From Halorubrum halophilum (GTDB taxonomy: Archaea; Halobacteriota; Halobacteria; Halobacteriales; Haloferacaceae), in contig NZ_BBJP01000030.1 of the NCBI RefSeq assembly GCF_000739595.1, positions 62,001 through 126,000 on the forward strand: a stretch of 64,000 nt of DNA, in the 5' to 3' direction. Positions 5,321-64,000 of the stretch are shown here, one piece after another. How positions within the stretch are numbered: position 1 is the stretch's first letter; each line of letters opens with the position of its first letter. A model generated the notes under the pieces. It did not search any database and was not told the DNA's origin. It saw nothing but the letters and a program-made list of their open reading frames with translations. A program made the translations under genes and the position numbers.

Positions 5321-5567
5321 GATCGCTTATAAATGGTTACTGGCAGTGGATCCGCGGTGACACCTCCAAAGCCCCAGCCCGCACCGCGACCGCACCTCTC
5401 GCCTCCCCAGCCTCGTCGCTGGCGCCTTATAAGGCGCCAGCGACTCCCTCGCGGACTCCTCGTGGCCGCCAGAGGCGGCCACTCGGAGGCGCGCCACCGC
5501 ATCGTGTGGTTGGACTCAGCGATCGAGATGACTAGTCGCCACTCTCGATCCCGTTTATAAATAGCCG
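5321..5567 (+). repeat. Dispersed structured repeat, copy A (hairpin-1 module deleted)
   Basis: Noncoding repeat of the family shared with copies B, D, E and F. It starts with a TATA-like CTTATAAATGG at about 5325, then the conserved ACACCTCCAAAGCCCCAG (5363-5380). The long hairpin module found in B, D and F is missing: CCCCAGCC runs straight into CGCACCGCGACCGCACC. The second half is intact: CTCCCCAGCCTCG, a perfect 28-bp palindrome, CTCCCTCGCGG, a TGGCCGCC/GGCGGCCA hairpin (5463-5481), GGCGCGCCACCGCA and a closing TTTATAAATAGC. It lies upstream of pyrG and in the opposite orientation to it. The rest of 5122-5320 shows no gene. No terminal inverted repeats were found for this copy. Confidence 0.75.
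5416..5443. repeat. Perfect 28-bp palindrome inside repeat A
   Basis: TCGCTGGCGCC TTATAA GGCGCCAGCGA is its own reverse complement over all 28 bases. The equivalent place in copy B has another hairpin with the same outer arm (TCGCTGGCGGC...GCCGCCAGCGA) and a different centre. The centre TTATAA is TATA-like, but nothing nearby looks expressed from it. Confidence 0.9.
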
Positions 5568-5650
5568 ACGCTGGGCGAGTTCGAGTGAAGTTTTGCGAGG
5601 GAAGAGCGCTCCGAGAGCGTCTTCCGCATCACGGGGGTGGACCCCGGCGA

Positions 5651-5715
5651 TGCGAGGGGAGGGATTTGAACCACGGTCGCGCCAGAGGCGCTCCCTGATT
5701 CAAATCCCGCCCTCG
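5651..5715. repeat. Duplicated tRNA-Leu 3' end forming a long inverted repeat
   Basis: Bases 5651-5672 are identical to the 3' end of the neighbouring tRNA-Leu gene (5746-5767): discriminator, acceptor strand and T-arm, in the same minus orientation. About 24 bp further on, 5696-5715 carries a near-complement (GATTCAAATCCCGCCCTCG), so the two arms can form a hairpin of about 19 pairs with two mismatches. A short direct copy of a tRNA 3' end next to the intact tRNA is the classic trace of integrase-mediated insertion (attL/attR). No integrase gene remains, so only a scar or a recombination site is left. Confidence 0.6.
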
Positions 5716-5745
5716 TTGTGCATTCGCGCGTTGTGGACGCGCTCA

Positions 5746-5829
5746 TGCGAGGGGAGGGATTTGAACCCACGGACCTCTACAGGAGCGGAGCTTGAATCCG
5801 CCGCCGTTTCCGGGCTTGGCTACCCTCGC
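5746..5829 (-). tRNA. tRNA-Leu, anticodon CAA
   Basis: The minus strand folds as a class II tRNA of 84 nt. The acceptor stem GCGAGGG/CCCTCGC is perfect over 7 bp, the discriminator base is A, the D-arm is GCC...GGC, the anticodon stem is GCGGA/TCCGC around the loop TTCAAGC (anticodon CAA, reads UUG), the long variable arm contains CCT-GTAG-AGG, and the T-loop is TTCAAAT. The T-stem GTGGG/CCCTC has one T-T mismatch. The 3' CCA is not encoded. The gene lies just upstream, in transcription, of the tRNA 3'-end duplication. Confidence 0.93.
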
Positions 5830-5859
5830 ACGCGGCCGTGAGTTCGACACCCCAGCCCT

Positions 5860-11207: not shown

Positions 11208-11250
11208 GATCCGCCATCGCTGGTCGCTGAACGTGCGTCTTGATTGATAG

Positions 11251-11744
11251 CGGGAGTGGGTATAGCGAGATGGTGGAGTGGTTGTTTATACGTGATCGAG
11301 TGGTGTTGCTGTCGGCTATTTATAGGCGAGCGACAGTGCTAGAGTGAACACTTCCAAAGCCCCAGCCGCGCTCGGCTCCCACAGCTCGCTGCGGTCCTCA
11401 GTCGGTCGCTAACGCTCCCTCCCTGCGGTCCTTGCATCGCTGGGGTTCGCCGAGCGCGGCTGCCCCTTTGAGTCCCGCCCCGCACCGCAACCGCACAGCA
11501 CCTCACACCTCCCCAGCCTCGTCGCTGGCGGCTGCCGCCGCCAGCGACTCCCTCGCACCGGCGTCGCCGGCGGCTTCGCCGCCGGCTGCCAGAGGGACCT
11601 TCGGTCCCTCGCGATTCGCGGCCGCCGATGGCGGCCGCTCACCGGGGCGCGCCGACCACATCGTTCTTTATAAGTGATCGTCGCTAGCGCTCACGATTAT
11701 TTAAATACTGGATCGCCACCACCGATCTGCAACACCTACTCCCG
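11251..11744 (+). repeat. Dispersed structured repeat, copy B (full length, with terminal inverted repeats)
   Basis: Complete 494-bp copy. The left end CGGGAGTGGGTATAGCG (11251-11267) is an inverted repeat of the right end ATCTGCAACACCTACTCCCG (11725-11744). Inside, in order: TATA-like GTTTATA (11283) and TATTTATA (11318), CTTCCAAAGCCCCAG, hairpin 1 with a perfect 14-bp stem (11363-11376 with 11449-11462) closed by a CCC/CCC internal loop and an AAAG/CTTT stem, CTCCCCAGCCTCG, then four further hairpins (TCGCTGGCGGC..., GCCGGCGGC..., GAGGGACC..., GCGGCCGCC...), GGCGCGCC and TTTATAAGTGATCGTCG. It holds no convincing open reading frame and sits between two convergent genes. Confidence 0.8.
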
Positions 11745-11837
11745 ATCTGACTCACCACCGGTCGGAGAGTAGCCGCAGTCGGGCCAGAACGGATCACCGA
11801 CAGAAGGCGTCGACAAAGTCGCTCGCGAAGTGGCGAG

Positions 11838-21753: not shown

Positions 21754-22168
21754 TGTTTTATAAGCGATCCGTCGTCGCAGCGAACGTCACTTGCGTTCTG
21801 ATCGATCGTTTATAAATGGTTGATGACGGATCGACGTCGGACTCCTTCAAAGTCCCAGTCGATCGCTTATAAGTAGTTGTCTGCGGATCGACGGCGAACA
21901 CCTCCAAAGCCCCAGTCGCGACGACTCGGGGGCCTTGCTGTGCGCCTCGCTCAGTCGCTTGCGCTCCCTCGCTGCGGTGCTTGCTGCGGCCACCTTCGTC
22001 CTCGCGACTGCCCCTTTGAGTCCCACCCCGCCCCGCACCTCACGCCTCCCCAGCCTCGCGGTTCGCGCTCTCCGAGCGCTCACCGCGTCCCTCGCGCGGT
22101 GCTCCTCGCGGCCTGTCGGCCGCTCGGAGGCACGCGCCACCGCAAATCTGTTTATAAATAGCGAGATT
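21754..22168 (+). repeat. Dispersed structured repeat, copy D (with tandem 5' duplication)
   Basis: Begins 12 bp behind the tatC stop and lies in the same orientation. A 57-bp unit (GATCG-TTATAA-...-CCCAGTC) is tandemly duplicated at 21804-21860 and 21861-21917 with 45 of 57 bases equal, so the TATA-like box and the CCAAAG start occur twice. Hairpin 1 has the stem CAGTCGCGA/TCGCGACTG (21913-21921 with 22002-22010), extended by GAC/GTC after one mismatch, and is closed by CCC/CCC and AAAG/CTTT. Then come CTCCCCAGCCTCGCGG, a GCGGCC/GGCCGC hairpin (22107-22122), GCGCCACCGCA and TTTATAAATAGCGA (22151-22164). No coding sequence is seen. Confidence 0.78.
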
Positions 22169-31970: not shown

Positions 31971-32202
31971 GATGGCGGGAGTGGGTGTTGCAGATCGATG
32001 GCGACGATACAGTATTTAAAAAGGCGAGAGCGACGGCGACGAACGCTTATAAATGAACGGGGCGGTGGCGTGAAGCGCCTCGCGGCTGGGGCTTTGGAGG
32101 GCTTCACCGCGTCGTCGACGACGTATAAATACCTGACAGCGACACCGCTCGATAGCTTATAAACAACCGTTTCACCAATTCGCTATACCTACTCCCGCTA
32201 TC
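31971..32202 (-). repeat. Dispersed structured repeat, copy E (short form with terminal inverted repeats)
   Basis: A 232-bp deleted copy on the minus strand that starts 3 bp behind the hemL stop. Its left end, read on the minus strand (GATAGCGGGAGTAGGTATAG), matches copy B's left end; its right end (ATCTGCAACACCCACTCCCG) matches copy B's right end. The two TATA-like boxes (TTGTTTATAAG, GTATTTATACG), the CCTCCAAAGCCCCAGCCGCGAGG start and the GCCACCGC...ATTTATAAGCG end are kept. Everything between, including both main hairpins, is missing. This makes B and E the long and short forms of one element. Confidence 0.78.
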
Positions 32203-32204
32203 GC

Positions 32205-33542
32205 TCAGATCGCTTCTCGGTACGCCGCCAGCGTCTCCTCGACATCCTCCTCCGTGTGCGCGTAGGAGGTGAACTGACACTCGAACTGGTTGGCGGTGAG
32301 GAACACCCCGCGGTCCTTCATCTCCTGCCAGAACACGCGCTCCCACCGGTCGGTGGCGGCACGCGCGACATCGGCGCCGGTCTTCGGACACGAGTCGTAG
32401 CGGTCGCAGTCGGGGTCCTGCCGACAGCCGCCCGCGCAGCAGGCGTCCGGGTCGTCGGGCGCCTCGCGGGTGAAGACCGTCTTGAACATCGAGTCGGTGC
32501 CGACGACGGTGTACTCGGGCGCGCGCTCCGCGCAGATCTCCGCGATCCCCTCGCGGAGTTTCCGCCCGAGCCGGTTGACGTGCTCGTACACGTCGTTCTC
32601 GGCGGCGTACTCCAAGGTGGCTTTCCCGGCCGCCATCGTCACGGGGTGACCGGAGAACGTCCCCGACTGGAACACGTCGCCCGCGGGCGTGAATTCCTCG
32701 ATGATCTCCGCTTTCCCGCCGATCGCGCCGACCGGGAACCCGCCGCCGATGATCTTGCCGAACGTCGTCACGTCCGGGGTGACGCCGAACTTCGACTGCG
32801 CGCAGCCGAGCCCGCCGACACGGAATCCGGTGATCACCTCGTCGAAGACCAAAAGCGACCCGTGGTCGTCACAGAGGTCCCGGAGCGTCTCGTGGTAACC
32901 GTCGATCGGGGTCACGATGCCCATGTTGGCGAGGATCGGCTCGACCAGGACCGCCGCGATGTCGTCGCCGTGTTCGGCGAACACCTCTTTGGCGGCCTGC
33001 AGGTCGTTGAAGGGAATCGGGAGGGTGTGCTGCGCGAACTCTTCCGGGATCCCCTTCGTCGAGGGATGCGGGTCGTCGGCCGACCCCTCCACGAGCGTCG
33101 ACTCCTGCGCCCCGTGGTAGCCGCCCTGCATGACGACGATCTTGTCGCGGTCGGTGTGACCGCGCGCGAGCCGCACCGCCGAGACGGTCGCCTCGGTCCC
33201 CGAGTTGACGAACCGGATCGACTCCACGCTCGGGACGTGTCGCGCCACGAACTCCGCGTGTTCGACCTCGATCTCGGTGGGCGCGCCGTACATCGGGCCC
33301 GCGGCGACGTGCGACTGGATCGCCGCCTCGACCGGTTCCGGGAGGTCGTGGCCGTACAGCAGCGGCCCGTACCCCATCACCCAGTCGACGTAGCGGTTGC
33401 CGTCGGCGTCGATCACGTGGCCGCCGTCGCCGCGCTCGACGAAGAACGGGTGCGGCATCGTCGCCCGGACGGAAGAGTTGACGCCGCCGGGCATGACCGA
33501 CAGCGCGCGGTCGTACAGCCCGCGAGAGCGCTCGTGGTTCAT
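32205..33542 (-). CDS. hemL: Glutamate-1-semialdehyde 2,1-aminomutase with cysteine-rich insert
   Basis: PLP enzyme of tetrapyrrole synthesis that makes 5-aminolevulinate. The 445-residue protein has [11 protein letters not shown] near residue 17, [16 protein letters not shown] near 118, [12 protein letters not shown] near 235 and the PLP lysine in [15 protein letters not shown] near 268. An insert at about residues 362-390 carries five cysteines ([13 protein letters not shown]...DSCPK) between the two halves of the C-terminal domain; it is absent from bacterial HemL and might bind a metal or iron-sulfur cluster. ATG at 33542 is the conserved start; the upstream frame is a shadow. No other hem genes are adjacent. 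Confidence 0.93.
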
Positions 33543-47235: not shown

Positions 47236-47516
47236 GTCGTGCGGTGGCGCGCGCCGCCGAGCGCCCGCAGGGCGCGAGGTGCACGCGCGAGGGACGCGGC
47301 GAGCGAGGTTGGCGACCGAAGGGGGCCCCGAGCGAGCCGCGAGGCTGGGGAGGCGTGAGGCTGCGGTGCGGTCGTAGTCGGGTGGGACTCAAAGGGGCAG
47401 CCGCGAGGCAGGCACAGGCGACGGAAGCACCGCAAGGAGCGAGTGAAACGAGCGACTGAGGAGCGCAACAAGCGTGTGCCTGCCTCGCGGCTGGGGCTTT
47501 GTAGGCGTTCACCGCA
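47236..47516 (-). repeat. Dispersed structured repeat, copy F (19-bp perfect hairpin)
   Basis: Minus-strand copy in the 418-bp gap between hisG and a membrane-protein gene, behind that gene's stop and in its orientation. Read on the minus strand: GCGGTGAACGCCTACAAAGCCCCAG, then hairpin 1 with a perfect 19-bp stem (47398-47416 with 47475-47493), closed by CCC/CCC and AAAG/CTTT, and a conserved loop containing CTCAGTCGCTCG and TGCGGTGCTTC. Then CTCCCCAGCCTCGCGG, a GCGCCC/GGGCGC hairpin near 47261-47275 and GCGCGCCACCGCA. The TATA-like boxes of the other copies are missing and no terminal inverted repeats were found. Confidence 0.78.
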
Positions 47517-59497: not shown

Positions 59498-59640
59498 TGA
59501 CATCCTCCCCGCGCTGAAGCGCGAGGATTCCCACGGCACCGTGCCGCTTGGTTGGGATATTGTGGTTTACGACGTGACCCGTTCTTGAGGCGCGAATGCG
59601 CCAGTTTCCTTGTCAAACAGGAACGTCGATGGCTGTGCCA
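59498..59640 (-). ncRNA. Probable omega-RNA at the 3' end of tnpB
   Basis: In TnpB elements the guide (omega) RNA spans the tnpB 3' end and the right-end hairpin; its guide is the flanking host DNA. Here the right end closes at the hairpin 59507-59526, so the guide would begin at about 59498 and read leftward into the DUF7344-like gene region. This is inference from the family; no transcript is known. Confidence 0.35.
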
Positions 59641-60847
59641 ACCAGCCGTTACTCCTATCACCGCTATCCGTGACGAGACTCGGAGATACTTTCTGTCGAA
59701 TGTTCTCTGCACCGTTCACATCAGCGTTCGCTACCGTCCCGCAGTCGTCGCACACGTACAATCCGCGTTCGACGCGGTTTGCCTTTCGCGTGCGACCACA
59801 GCACGAACACGAGTTCGACGTATCGCGTTCGGACACCTGCTCAACTGCGATGTCTTCCATCTCGGCTTTGTATTCGAGCAGCTCGGTGAATCGGTCGAAC
59901 GCCCACGAGTGCAAGTCGAGGTTGCCGTGTTTTCCCCAGTTTTTCGACTCATCGGTCTCCTCGTCCTCGCGGATACCGGAGAGGTTGCCAACCACGATGG
60001 TTCCAACGCCCTCATCAACACATCGCTGAACGATGTGCTTGGAGAGCGTATGGAAATAGTGAGTGCGGCGAGCAGACTTCTTCTGGTTCAGCCGCGTGGC
60101 CTGCTCGGAGTTCGAGTCGTCACACTGAGCGATCCGCTTGCTGAAGTAGTAGTCGTCCTGTTTCAGACAGTTCAGAGGATACAGCTCGGCGTGGCCGTCC
60201 TCGTAGGCGAGCGCGGCGAAGTTGTTGATACCGAGATCAACACCCACAGTCTTCTCACCGGGAGATTCGGCCACCTCGCTCTCGACTTTGCACACGAAGT
60301 GTAGCTCCCACTCCTCATCCGTCCAAACTGCCCGCACTTGCTGGACGTTCTCCACGGCAGAGAGGTCAACGTCGGGCCGTGTTTGGAATTTGCAGAGGAT
60401 GAAATCCGACCAATACTCTTTGAGATTCGATCCCTGCGAGAGTCGGACGCGGTCGTGCTGGGTGTCGAGCTTGAACCCAGCGGCTTTGAACGTCACCGTC
60501 GAACGCGGGTGTTCGTCACCGTGTTTACGGTAGCCGGGCGGGTTCGCTCTCGCATCTCCGTTTTGTCGTTTGCCGTACCAACCGTTGAACGCCTCAGCGA
60601 GTTCTTGAAGGACTCGCTGACTTGACTGAGAATGGAGGTCATCATAGCGTTCGTGATTTTTGAGGTACGTGGTGAGTTCGTTGTGGTTGGGAATGTAATC
60701 GATTTCATCCCAGATCCGGCTGCATGTCCACCGTCCGACGTTCCAGAGTTTCGAGGCTGCGAACCCGAGGGCGTCAAGGTCGTCTGACACCCGTGACTGA
60801 TTCCGAATGGACGCAGTGTAGGTGCGAGTAACGACCTTTTTCGCCAT
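59567..60847 (-). CDS. tnpB: TnpB RNA-guided nuclease
   Basis: A 426-residue TnpB, ancestor type of Cas12 nucleases. RuvC-I aspartate in GVDLGINNFAALA near residue 200, RuvC-III aspartate in NADVNGAENI near 383, and a C-terminal zinc finger CSCCGRTRKAN...YVCDDCG near 348-376. The RuvC-II position reads IVVGNLSGI where the typical glutamate (VxED) is absent; haloarchaeal members often show this and may use a glutamate nearby (SGIRED or SERDTS). Frame is intact from ATG 60847 to the stop. An upstream TTTATC box about 20 bp before ATG suggests expression. Confidence 0.92.
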   Translation of the reverse strand: MAKKVVTRTYTASIRNQSRVSDDLDALGFAASKLWNVGRWTCSRIWDEIDYIPNHNELTTYLKNHERYDDLHSQSSQRVLQELAEAFNGWYGKRQNGDARANPPGYRKHGDEHPRSTVTFKAAGFKLDTQHDRVRLSQGSNLKEYWSDFILCKFQTRPDVDLSAVENVQQVRAVWTDEEWELHFVCKVESEVAESPGEKTVGVDLGINNFAALAYEDGHAELYPLNCLKQDDYYFSKRIAQCDDSNSEQATRLNQKKSARRTHYFHTLSKHIVQRCVDEGVGTIVVGNLSGIREDEETDESKNWGKHGNLDLHSWAFDRFTELLEYKAEMEDIAVEQVSERDTSNSCSCCGRTRKANRVERGLYVCDDCGTVANADVNGAENIRQKVSPSLVTDSGDRSNGWLAQPSTFLFDKETGAFAPQERVTS

Positions 60848-62395: not shown

Positions 62396-64000
62396 ATGGC
62401 AAGTGACAAGCAATCGGGATCTCCCGGCGGGCTGTACGCGCAACGCATCGGGACCCCAACCACTAACGACGAGGTGAACGGCTTCTGGCTGTTCGGGTTC
62501 GGGGTGTTGCTCGGGCTGGCCGGGGTCGTCCTGTTCTTCCTCACCGAATCGGCGACGACGACTCGGGGGATCGGCTACGCGCTGGCGGCGCTGGCTCCGC
62601 CGTTCGTCATGCTCGGCGCGGTGATACGCTTCCCGCTCCGACGAGCGGGGACGTACCTCGGCTACCTCGGGACGGCGGTCAGCGTCCTCGGCGTGGTCTG
62701 GTTCGTGAACATCTTCCCGGACGGCTGGTTCACCGCCTCCGGCGACCCGACCGTGATCGCCGTGTATGGGCTCGGACTCGGGCTCATCGGGCTCGCGGGG
62801 ACGGTCGTCCCGCTCATCACCGACCCGGTCCGCGAGGACTACGAGCGGATGCAGAGCGAGACGGCCGCCGCGACGGCCGAGCGCGACGAGACGAGCGCGG
62901 AGCTCGAAGCGACGGAGTCGGAGCTGGAGTCGGCCCGCGAGGACCTGAAAGCGACCCGTGAGGAGCTGTCGGCCACCGATTCGGAGCTCGACGCGGCCCG
63001 CGCGGAGACCGCGGCGCTGCGGGAGAGCAAGGCGCGGTTCGAGCTGTTCGAGGACGCCGGCGGCAAGCCGCGCTGGCGGCTCCGCCACCGCAACGGCAAC
63101 GTCATCGCGACCGCCGGGCAGGGGTACAGCAGCCGCGGCAAGGCCCAGAAGGGGCTCCACAGCGTCCGGCGGAACGCGCTCGGCGCCGGGATCCTCCGGA
63201 TCGAGACCCCGGTCGCGGAGGCCGAGGCGATCGCCGACGACGACGGCCCCGAGCCCGCGGACGCCGCGGACCCGGACGTTGCCGTCCCGAGCGACGACGA
63301 GGAGATCGCGAGCAAGGCGACCTTCGAGCTGTTCGAGGACGCCGGCGCCGAGTGGCGCTGGCGGCTCCGCCACGACAACGGGAACGTCATCTCGGACTCC
63401 GGCGAGGGGTACGCCTCCAAGTCGAACGCGAAGCGCGCGCTCGGCCGGGTCCGCGAGCACGCCGCCGCCGCGGACTACCTCCGAGTCGATCCGACCGCCT
63501 TCGAGGTGTTCCGCGACGCGGCCGGCGAGTGGCGCTGGCGGCTCATCCACGAGAACGGCAACATCCTCGCTGACTCCGGCGAGGGGTACTCCTCGCGGTC
63601 GAAGGCCCGGCAGGGGCTCGACAGCGTGCGGTCGAACGCCGCCGACGCGGGCCTCGAAGCGGACGGCGAGGAGAGCGAGGAGGGGAGCGGGAACGCGACC
63701 TTCGAGCTGTACGAGGACGCCGCCGATGAGTACCGCTGGCGGCTCCGCCACCGCAACGGCAACATCGTCGCCGACGGCGGCGAGGGGTACGCCTCCGAGT
63801 CGAACGCGCGGGACGCGATCGGTCGCGTTCGGGAGTACGCCCCCGACGCCGACGTGTTGGACGTCGGCAGCGCCGCCTTCGAGATCTACGAGGACGCCGG
63901 CGGCGAGTGGCGCTGGCGGCTCCGCCACCGCAACGGGAACATCGTCGCCGACTCCGGCGAGGGGTACGCCTCCCGGTCGAACGCGGTCGAGGGCGTCACG
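62396..64000 (+). CDS. Membrane protein with coiled coil and tandem DUF1508 repeats, 3'-truncated by window
   Basis: Open to the window end (535 residues seen, no stop). Residues 30-52, 60-78, 86-106 and 115-140 are hydrophobic (about four helices). Residues 145-212 are a charged coiled coil rich in Glu/Ala/Ser (SELESAREDLKATREEL). From residue 215 there are five DUF1508/YegP-type repeats starting at 215, 310, 369, 436 and 495, each with F-E-[LVI]-[FY]-x-D-A, WRWRLRH or a variant, NGN[IV] and GEGY[AS]S. The fifth is cut by the window. Single-repeat haloarchaeal proteins (HVO_2922 type) exist; this multi-repeat form tethered to the membrane is unusual. The function is unknown. Confidence 0.9.
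   Translation, partial: MASDKQSGSPGGLYAQRIGTPTTNDEVNGFWLFGFGVLLGLAGVVLFFLTESATTTRGIGYALAALAPPFVMLGAVIRFPLRRAGTYLGYLGTAVSVLGVVWFVNIFPDGWFTASGDPTVIAVYGLGLGLIGLAGTVVPLITDPVREDYERMQSETAAATAERDETSAELEATESELESAREDLKATREELSATDSELDAARAETAALRESKARFELFEDAGGKPRWRLRHRNGNVIATAGQGYSSRGKAQKGLHSVRRNALGAGILRIETPVAEAEAIADDDGPEPADAADPDVAVPSDDEEIASKATFELFEDAGAEWRWRLRHDNGNVISDSGEGYASKSNAKRALGRVREHAAAADYLRVDPTAFEVFRDAAGEWRWRLIHENGNILADSGEGYSSRSKARQGLDSVRSNAADAGLEADGEESEEGSGNATFELYEDAADEYRWRLRHRNGNIVADGGEGYASESNARDAIGRVREYAPDADVLDVGSAAFEIYEDAGGEWRWRLRHRNGNIVADSGEGYASRSNAVEGVT

Follow-up and report, generated by a model that had tools for sequence, protein, structure and literature searches.

A dispersed intergenic hairpin family of Halobacteria with a covarying, strand-polar fold

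Hairpin copies in the window and their repeat surroundings

The window, the whole stretch of 64,000 nucleotides that was analysed, corresponds to positions 62001-126000 of one contig in a Halorubrum-type source genome of 3.68 Mb and 103 contigs. It carries copies B, D and F of a hairpin, called here hairpin 1, and further parts of the core to which this hairpin belongs:

5366-5500: core copy without hairpin 1, in which AAAGCCCCAG runs directly into CCCGCACCGC...CCTCCCCAGCCTCG
11246-11749: inverted-repeat-bounded unit around copy B, with its left end GATAGCGGGAGTGGGTATAG at 11246 and a degenerate right end CTACTCCCGATCTG at about 11737-11749
11355-11480, folding strand minus (G-rich; the plus strand is C-rich): copy B of hairpin 1
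11355-11359 and 11466-11470 (plus coordinates): closing stem of copy B, CAAAG / CTTTG
11360-11362 and 11463-11465 (plus coordinates): CCC/CCC loop of copy B
11363-11376 and 11449-11462 (plus coordinates): variable stem of copy B, perfect over 14 bp
11470-11480: invariant tail of copy B, GAGTCCCGCCC
11508-11660 (ends approximate): rest of the core of copy B, with the CCTCCCCAGCCTCG motif, hairpin 2, CTCCCTCGC, hairpin 3 with palindromic cassettes, and GCGCGCC
21905-22028, folding strand minus: copy D of hairpin 1, arms CAGTCGCGA / TCGCGACTG
22036-22145 (ends approximate): rest of the core of copy D, hairpins 2 and 3
31976-32215, minus strand: unit with both inverted-repeat ends, without hairpins
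47380-47501, folding strand plus (G-rich; the minus strand is C-rich): copy F of hairpin 1, perfect 19-bp stem

A sequence-only reading of the window had described a perfect 14-bp stem in copy B, a perfect 19-bp stem in copy F (47501-47390 on the C-rich minus strand) and a partially extended stem in copy D, all of which were found again at correct coordinates; in copy D (21905-22018, plus strand), a perfect 9-bp stem is followed by one C.C mismatch and then by more pairs. The AAAG/CTTT stem and the CCC/CCC internal loop are likewise present in the three copies, and the conserved loop block CTCAGTCGCT...TGCGGT, of which copy B carries the variant CTCAGTCGGTCGCT...TGCGGT, occurs 27 times in the genome without a mismatch, compared to 0 times for the reversed pattern. 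The limits first given for the signal hold for the part that they cover; the conserved part reaches further, to CCCRCCC (11470-11480 in copy B), and the interior is paired too.

The 3' foot CTGCCCCTTTGAGTCCC was found at 140 sites of the source genome with at most two mismatches (75 forward and 65 reverse), and the reversed control at 0 sites under the same threshold. The hairpin of copies B, D and F belongs to an intergenic family whose copies in the source genome number about 140. Genome-wide, 106 distinct copies were fetched, among which 101 have a readable 5' boundary and were picked without a pairing criterion.

Regarding the surroundings of the hairpin, both inverted-repeat ends GATAGCGGGAGT were detected at 23 of the 106 copies, one end at 23 and none at 60, so that 46 of the 106 lie inside a unit of 120-650 bp with such ends. 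Beyond these ends, an additional nested repeat layer is formed by conserved flanks of two types, TTTTCGTCCGAAACGGTTGGTCGCTGAAG... and GGTCGGTACAGACACAGCAGCGATC; a unit often has one of each, and either type may be on the left. Target duplications are unreadable at the units as the flanks beyond the inverted repeats are repeats themselves. Since nearly half of the source genome's copies are found in GATAGCGGGAGT-ended units flanked by further repeats, mobility, either ongoing or in the past, is likely. Small cassettes that are perfect palindromes (CCGGCGGCTTCGCCGCCGG, GAGGCGCGAAGCGCCTC and GCGAGAGCTTCGCTCTCGC) recur at varying positions within the elements, at four loci and at 11565-11640 of the window, and the tip of many of them is GCTTCGC/GCGAAGC. 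Tandem units of about 46-57 nt (CTTATAAGTGGTTG...GGTGAACACCTCCAAAGCCCCAGCCGCTCG) were observed on the upstream side of hairpin 1 at four loci and others, and every unit contains a TATA-like box.

Elsewhere in the window, a tRNA-Leu (CAA) gene is located at 5745-5830 (minus strand), within 5640-5830, and beside it, at about 5655-5715, stands a second fragment resembling a tRNA 3' end (GAGGGGAGGGATTTGAACC... / ...CAAATCCCGCCCTCG), which has the appearance of a partial duplication or of a scar left by integration. A match to the Rfam family sot0042 (sense overlapping transcript) at 59506-59691 (minus strand) overlaps the 3' end of a TnpB-like (IS1341-type) frame. Finally, a coding region at 62998-63985 contains five direct repeats, each about 148 nt long, that are 70-80% alike and are probably repeated small domains of one protein.

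Covariation and the folding strand

Hairpin 1 is about 120 nt long. Its closing stem of 5 bp is followed inwards by an invariant 3x3 internal loop, then by a variable stem of 9-20 bp and finally by an interior ladder in which steps of two base pairs alternate with invariant two-base mismatches. Sequences vary between copies and genera; pairs and mismatches are retained. The CCC/CCC loop has CCC in 213/213 hairpins on one side and in 211/213 on the other, and three TC/TC two-by-two loops are present in 50-54 of 54 copies, together with a T.T mismatch.

Among the 101 copies of the source genome, 53 distinct 9-bp arm pairs were counted, and the variable arm positions are Watson-Crick in 85% of the cells compared to 58% when the arms are shuffled (66% in the top one of 1000 shuffles). 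Column pairs of an alignment of 54 copies were then screened by mutual information, without thermodynamics. The pairs obtained were all nested and compatible and reached through the interior to the tip, with the exception of a local alternative at columns 47-51. Over 31 pairs, 96.9% of the cells are paired compared to 83.0 ± 0.5% after shuffling, it being understood that copies of one genome are non-independent and that shared descent survives shuffling, a problem lessened, not abolished, by comparing species and genera. Double changes number 226, present in 20 of the 31 pairs, compared to 61.7 ± 5.8 in shuffled alignments; the covariation score is 0.378 compared to 0.129, a value as high being reached in 0 of 500 shuffles, and structures slid along the alignment are at most 48.8% paired. 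The same structure was obtained by RNA folding of the plus strand of copy F alone.

A covariance model matches the same hairpin in other genera, the lowest E-values being about 1e-20. Thirty-five hairpins from other genomes, almost all from other genera, were aligned: 94.5% of the cells are paired (67.2 ± 1.0% when shuffled) and 29 of the 31 pairs are doubly changed; slid versions, the fairer comparison here because this alignment was fitted to the model, are at most 45.6% paired. The closing stem provided a clean test. It occurs as CAAAG/CTTTG, CGAAG/CTTCG or GAAAG/CTTTC, and in two genomes the 3' foot mostly has CTTCG in place of CTTTG. Twenty regions from these two genomes were picked by the 3' arm CTTCG alone: 18 of the 20 contain a readable hairpin, and CGAAG stands on the 5' side in 18/18. 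GAAAG/CTTTC closes 17/17 readable hairpins from other genera. The closing stem therefore covaries between lineages. These results uphold, with many more copies, formal controls and other genera, the earlier claim of a structure maintained by paired changes, and across the enlarged copy set the arms do not drift independently. An outer closing stem of the whole core, GCGGTG/CACCGC, was rejected, its observed pairing being near expectation, and a kink-turn reading of the 3x2 loop, proposed from sequence, failed because the bulged strand is too short.

The invariant mismatches are pyrimidine-pyrimidine on the C-rich strand, and on its complement they become GGG/GGG and tandem 5'-GA-3'/5'-GA-3'. 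Structural work has established that tandem G.A mismatches form stabilising sheared pairs. RNA folding recovered at least 80% of the interior pairs in 51/54 copies on the G-rich strand compared to 7/54 on the C-rich strand (p=1.7e-10), and in other genera the recovery was 0.87 and 0.51, respectively. Mismatches read on the C-rich strand are more often A.C than G.T (31 vs 15, p=0.026, much of the excess being at one stem position), and this excess favours the G-rich strand since A.C on the C strand reads G.U on the complement. Furthermore, the polarity of the interior relative to the feet is kept in 195/202 copies and inverted in 7/202 (3/101 in the source genome and 4/101 in other Halorubrum), though the flanking arms would permit flipping. 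The folds, the mismatch type and the polarity lead us to regard the G-rich strand as the functional one; fold and wobble evidence both speak against a functional RNA from the C-rich strand. The structure described earlier is thus real, and the strand on which it had been described is probably the complement of the one that folds. Structure and strand are the firm part of this analysis, in which we have high confidence. DNA folding reached the same 80% level in 7/54 copies on the G strand and 1/54 on the C strand; on these predictions RNA is favoured over single-stranded DNA as the functional molecule, with the reservation that DNA energy tables may undervalue tandem G.A.

Genomic settings, turnover and a proposed role

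The copies of the source genome lie between convergent genes in 50 cases, divergent genes in 14 and tandem genes in 34, gene orientations being taken from frame composition and not from annotation. Because convergent and divergent gaps are equal in number on a circular chromosome, 50 versus 14 represents a real preference. In tandem settings, no preference was found for the G strand as sense strand (19 vs 15), which counts against a cis-acting 3' element, as such an element might show a sense-strand preference. No consistent promoter or terminator accompanies the copies.

Many Halorubrum species carry the element at the hisG site, and in all of them it has the same orientation. Its hairpins there are 0.78 alike, compared to 0.74 ± 0.08 for random paralogues of one genome, and hisG itself and the flanks are 88-96% identical between species. 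That these hairpins are no more alike than paralogues despite such similar flanks indicates persistence of the sites and exchange of their content, for which recombination between copies would be the simplest route. At the site of copy B, five of the other orthologues examined carry the element, four near relatives lack it and one carries it inverted: in this relative, the whole inverted-repeat-bounded unit stands in the opposite orientation, which suggests in-place inversion or reinsertion.

Among 197 genomes of the phylum, the matches listed all belong to the order, family or genus of the window, and none of those listed lies outside the class: the family is confined to Halobacteria and is class-wide. 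Its chromosomal copies number up to about 190 in a genome, and it is not essential, since some Halorubrum genomes carry merely 1-2 copies. No covariance model of Rfam (release 15) matches over the element, at the gathering level or at E≤1, and no earlier description of the motif was found in the open-licence literature, which returned papers on PATE, SMR, REP and G4 only; that the family is undescribed rests on these two sources.

Taken together, we propose, at about even chances, that the family is a REP-like mosaic repeat of the chromosome in which selection acts on a strand-specific fold, probably as RNA at transcript ends. The hairpin is a unit of a repeat family dispersed between genes of Halobacteria, in which evolution seems to keep the shape and not the sequence, most likely the shape of an RNA read from the G-rich strand; on the fold predictions, it is rather probable that the hairpin acts as RNA. 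Transcripts running off the flanking, mostly convergent, genes would carry the G-rich fold at their 3' end, where a very stable barrier might set or protect the transcript end, as bacterial REP/BIME do, a function that we put forward tentatively and by analogy. Copies would be renewed through recombination between copies of the same genome, which would explain persisting sites with hairpin turnover inside. With similar reserve, the copies can be viewed as structured, strand-specific RNAs that form an undescribed family spanning the class, in which Watson-Crick steps alternate with tandem G.A beside a conserved G-tract motif and the stem sequence differs from copy to copy on a scaffold that stays fixed. 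Such a conserved structure across a whole archaeal class, at more than 100 copies per genome and not listed in Rfam, would bear on how transcripts of convergent archaeal genes end, and its dozens of natural compensatory mutants per genome make its function directly testable in culturable strains.

Alternative explanations and known repeat systems

The main rival is a single-stranded DNA recognised by a transposase. The family would then be non-autonomous mobile DNA (PATE-, MITE- or REPIN-like), with the fold recognised on one single strand as in IS200/IS605; transposition would spread and homogenise the copies, and convergent gaps would merely be tolerated sites. The high copy number, the mosaic modules, the inverted-repeat-ended units and the strand polarity of the fold are compatible with this explanation, as are the inverted tail-to-tail pairs of other genera, which resemble REPINs, and the PATEs and short mobile repeats already known in haloarchaea (PMC3119063, PMC10544981). 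However, where the secondary replicons of Halorubrum genomes are resolved, the matches listed are all on the main chromosome, 36/36 in one genome being on the 2.74-Mb chromosome despite 0.96 Mb of other replicons. A phage collection searched with copy D gave no match, viral contigs gave one in 2.9 million, and plasmid matches were few, short and partial. Moreover, no Y1_Tnp match at E≤1e-5 was obtained in six genomes with 60-103 copies each, whereas Y1 matches are present in three genomes despite 1-2 family copies; an IS200-type Y1 transposase does not track family copy number. Versions with and without the element exist at the hisG site and at that of copy B, but no clean empty site or target duplication could be obtained, the junctions being too diverged to read. 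We regard this mobile-DNA explanation as rather unlikely.

A DNA quadruplex in molar K+ appears improbable. The four G-tracts GGGYGGG, GGGG and GGGG beside the stem would form a duplex-stem G4 acting on replication, recombination or transcription, in line with the invariant GGG/GGG loop, with G4 DNA and RNA reported in Haloferax (PMC12873603) and with a conserved tail that coincides with CCCRCCC: the three final columns of this motif, which were not part of the query, are 96-99% conserved and the following ones 37-54%. Yet ACTCAAA, the stretch that separates the tracts, is just as invariant and contains the closing stem, dispensable for a quadruplex, and the interior ladder would have no role there. 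A mutational origin without selection, in which quasi-palindrome correction (template switching), inversion or gene conversion between arms would keep these complementary, is largely refuted and very improbable: it agrees with the interior inversions in 7 of the 202 classified copies, which bear out in part an earlier concern about inversion, with the many perfect palindromic cassettes nearby and with the evident rapid recombinational turnover, but correction is strandless, whereas folding, mismatch type and interior polarity favour one strand, and it would erase the CCC/CCC and TC/TC mismatches that invariantly separate covarying pairs and that inversion does not explain.

The reading as a REP-like repeat selected for its fold can be set beside three known systems. 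MITEs resemble the family in that nearly half of the source genome's hairpin copies lie in units with inverted-repeat ends; they differ in that the hairpin core also occurs without ends, and alone in other genera, and in that no target duplication was seen, the flanks being repetitive. PATEs and SMRs are non-coding, palindrome-bearing haloarchaeal repeats that nest in each other (PMC3119063; for a PATE of Hrr. lacusprofundi, PMC10544981), a likeness shared by the present family, and a Halorubrum PATE is transcribed (PMC10544981). By contrast, the palindromes of PATEs are near-terminal and resemble those of IS605 transposons, and PATEs are found on viruses and plasmids, whereas the hairpin family is chromosomal. 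The bacterial REP/BIME/REPIN elements (PMC3116915) are likewise dispersed, extragenic, palindromic and mosaic, with more than 100 copies, a variable interior, and both single units and inverted pairs; as a dispersed extragenic palindrome of high copy, the family has its 140 intergenic sites in the source genome, and inverted doublets (close plus/minus pairs) were seen at three loci in some other genera and are not the rule in Halorubrum. It differs from these elements by its hairpin of 120 nt, whose strand-polar fold covaries and includes invariant tandem mismatches, and by its restriction to Halobacteria. Membership in the REPIN-RAYT system was rejected since the Y1 (RAYT) transposase does not track copy number. 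The family may thus represent an archaeal counterpart to REP elements, seemingly needing no Y1 transposase.
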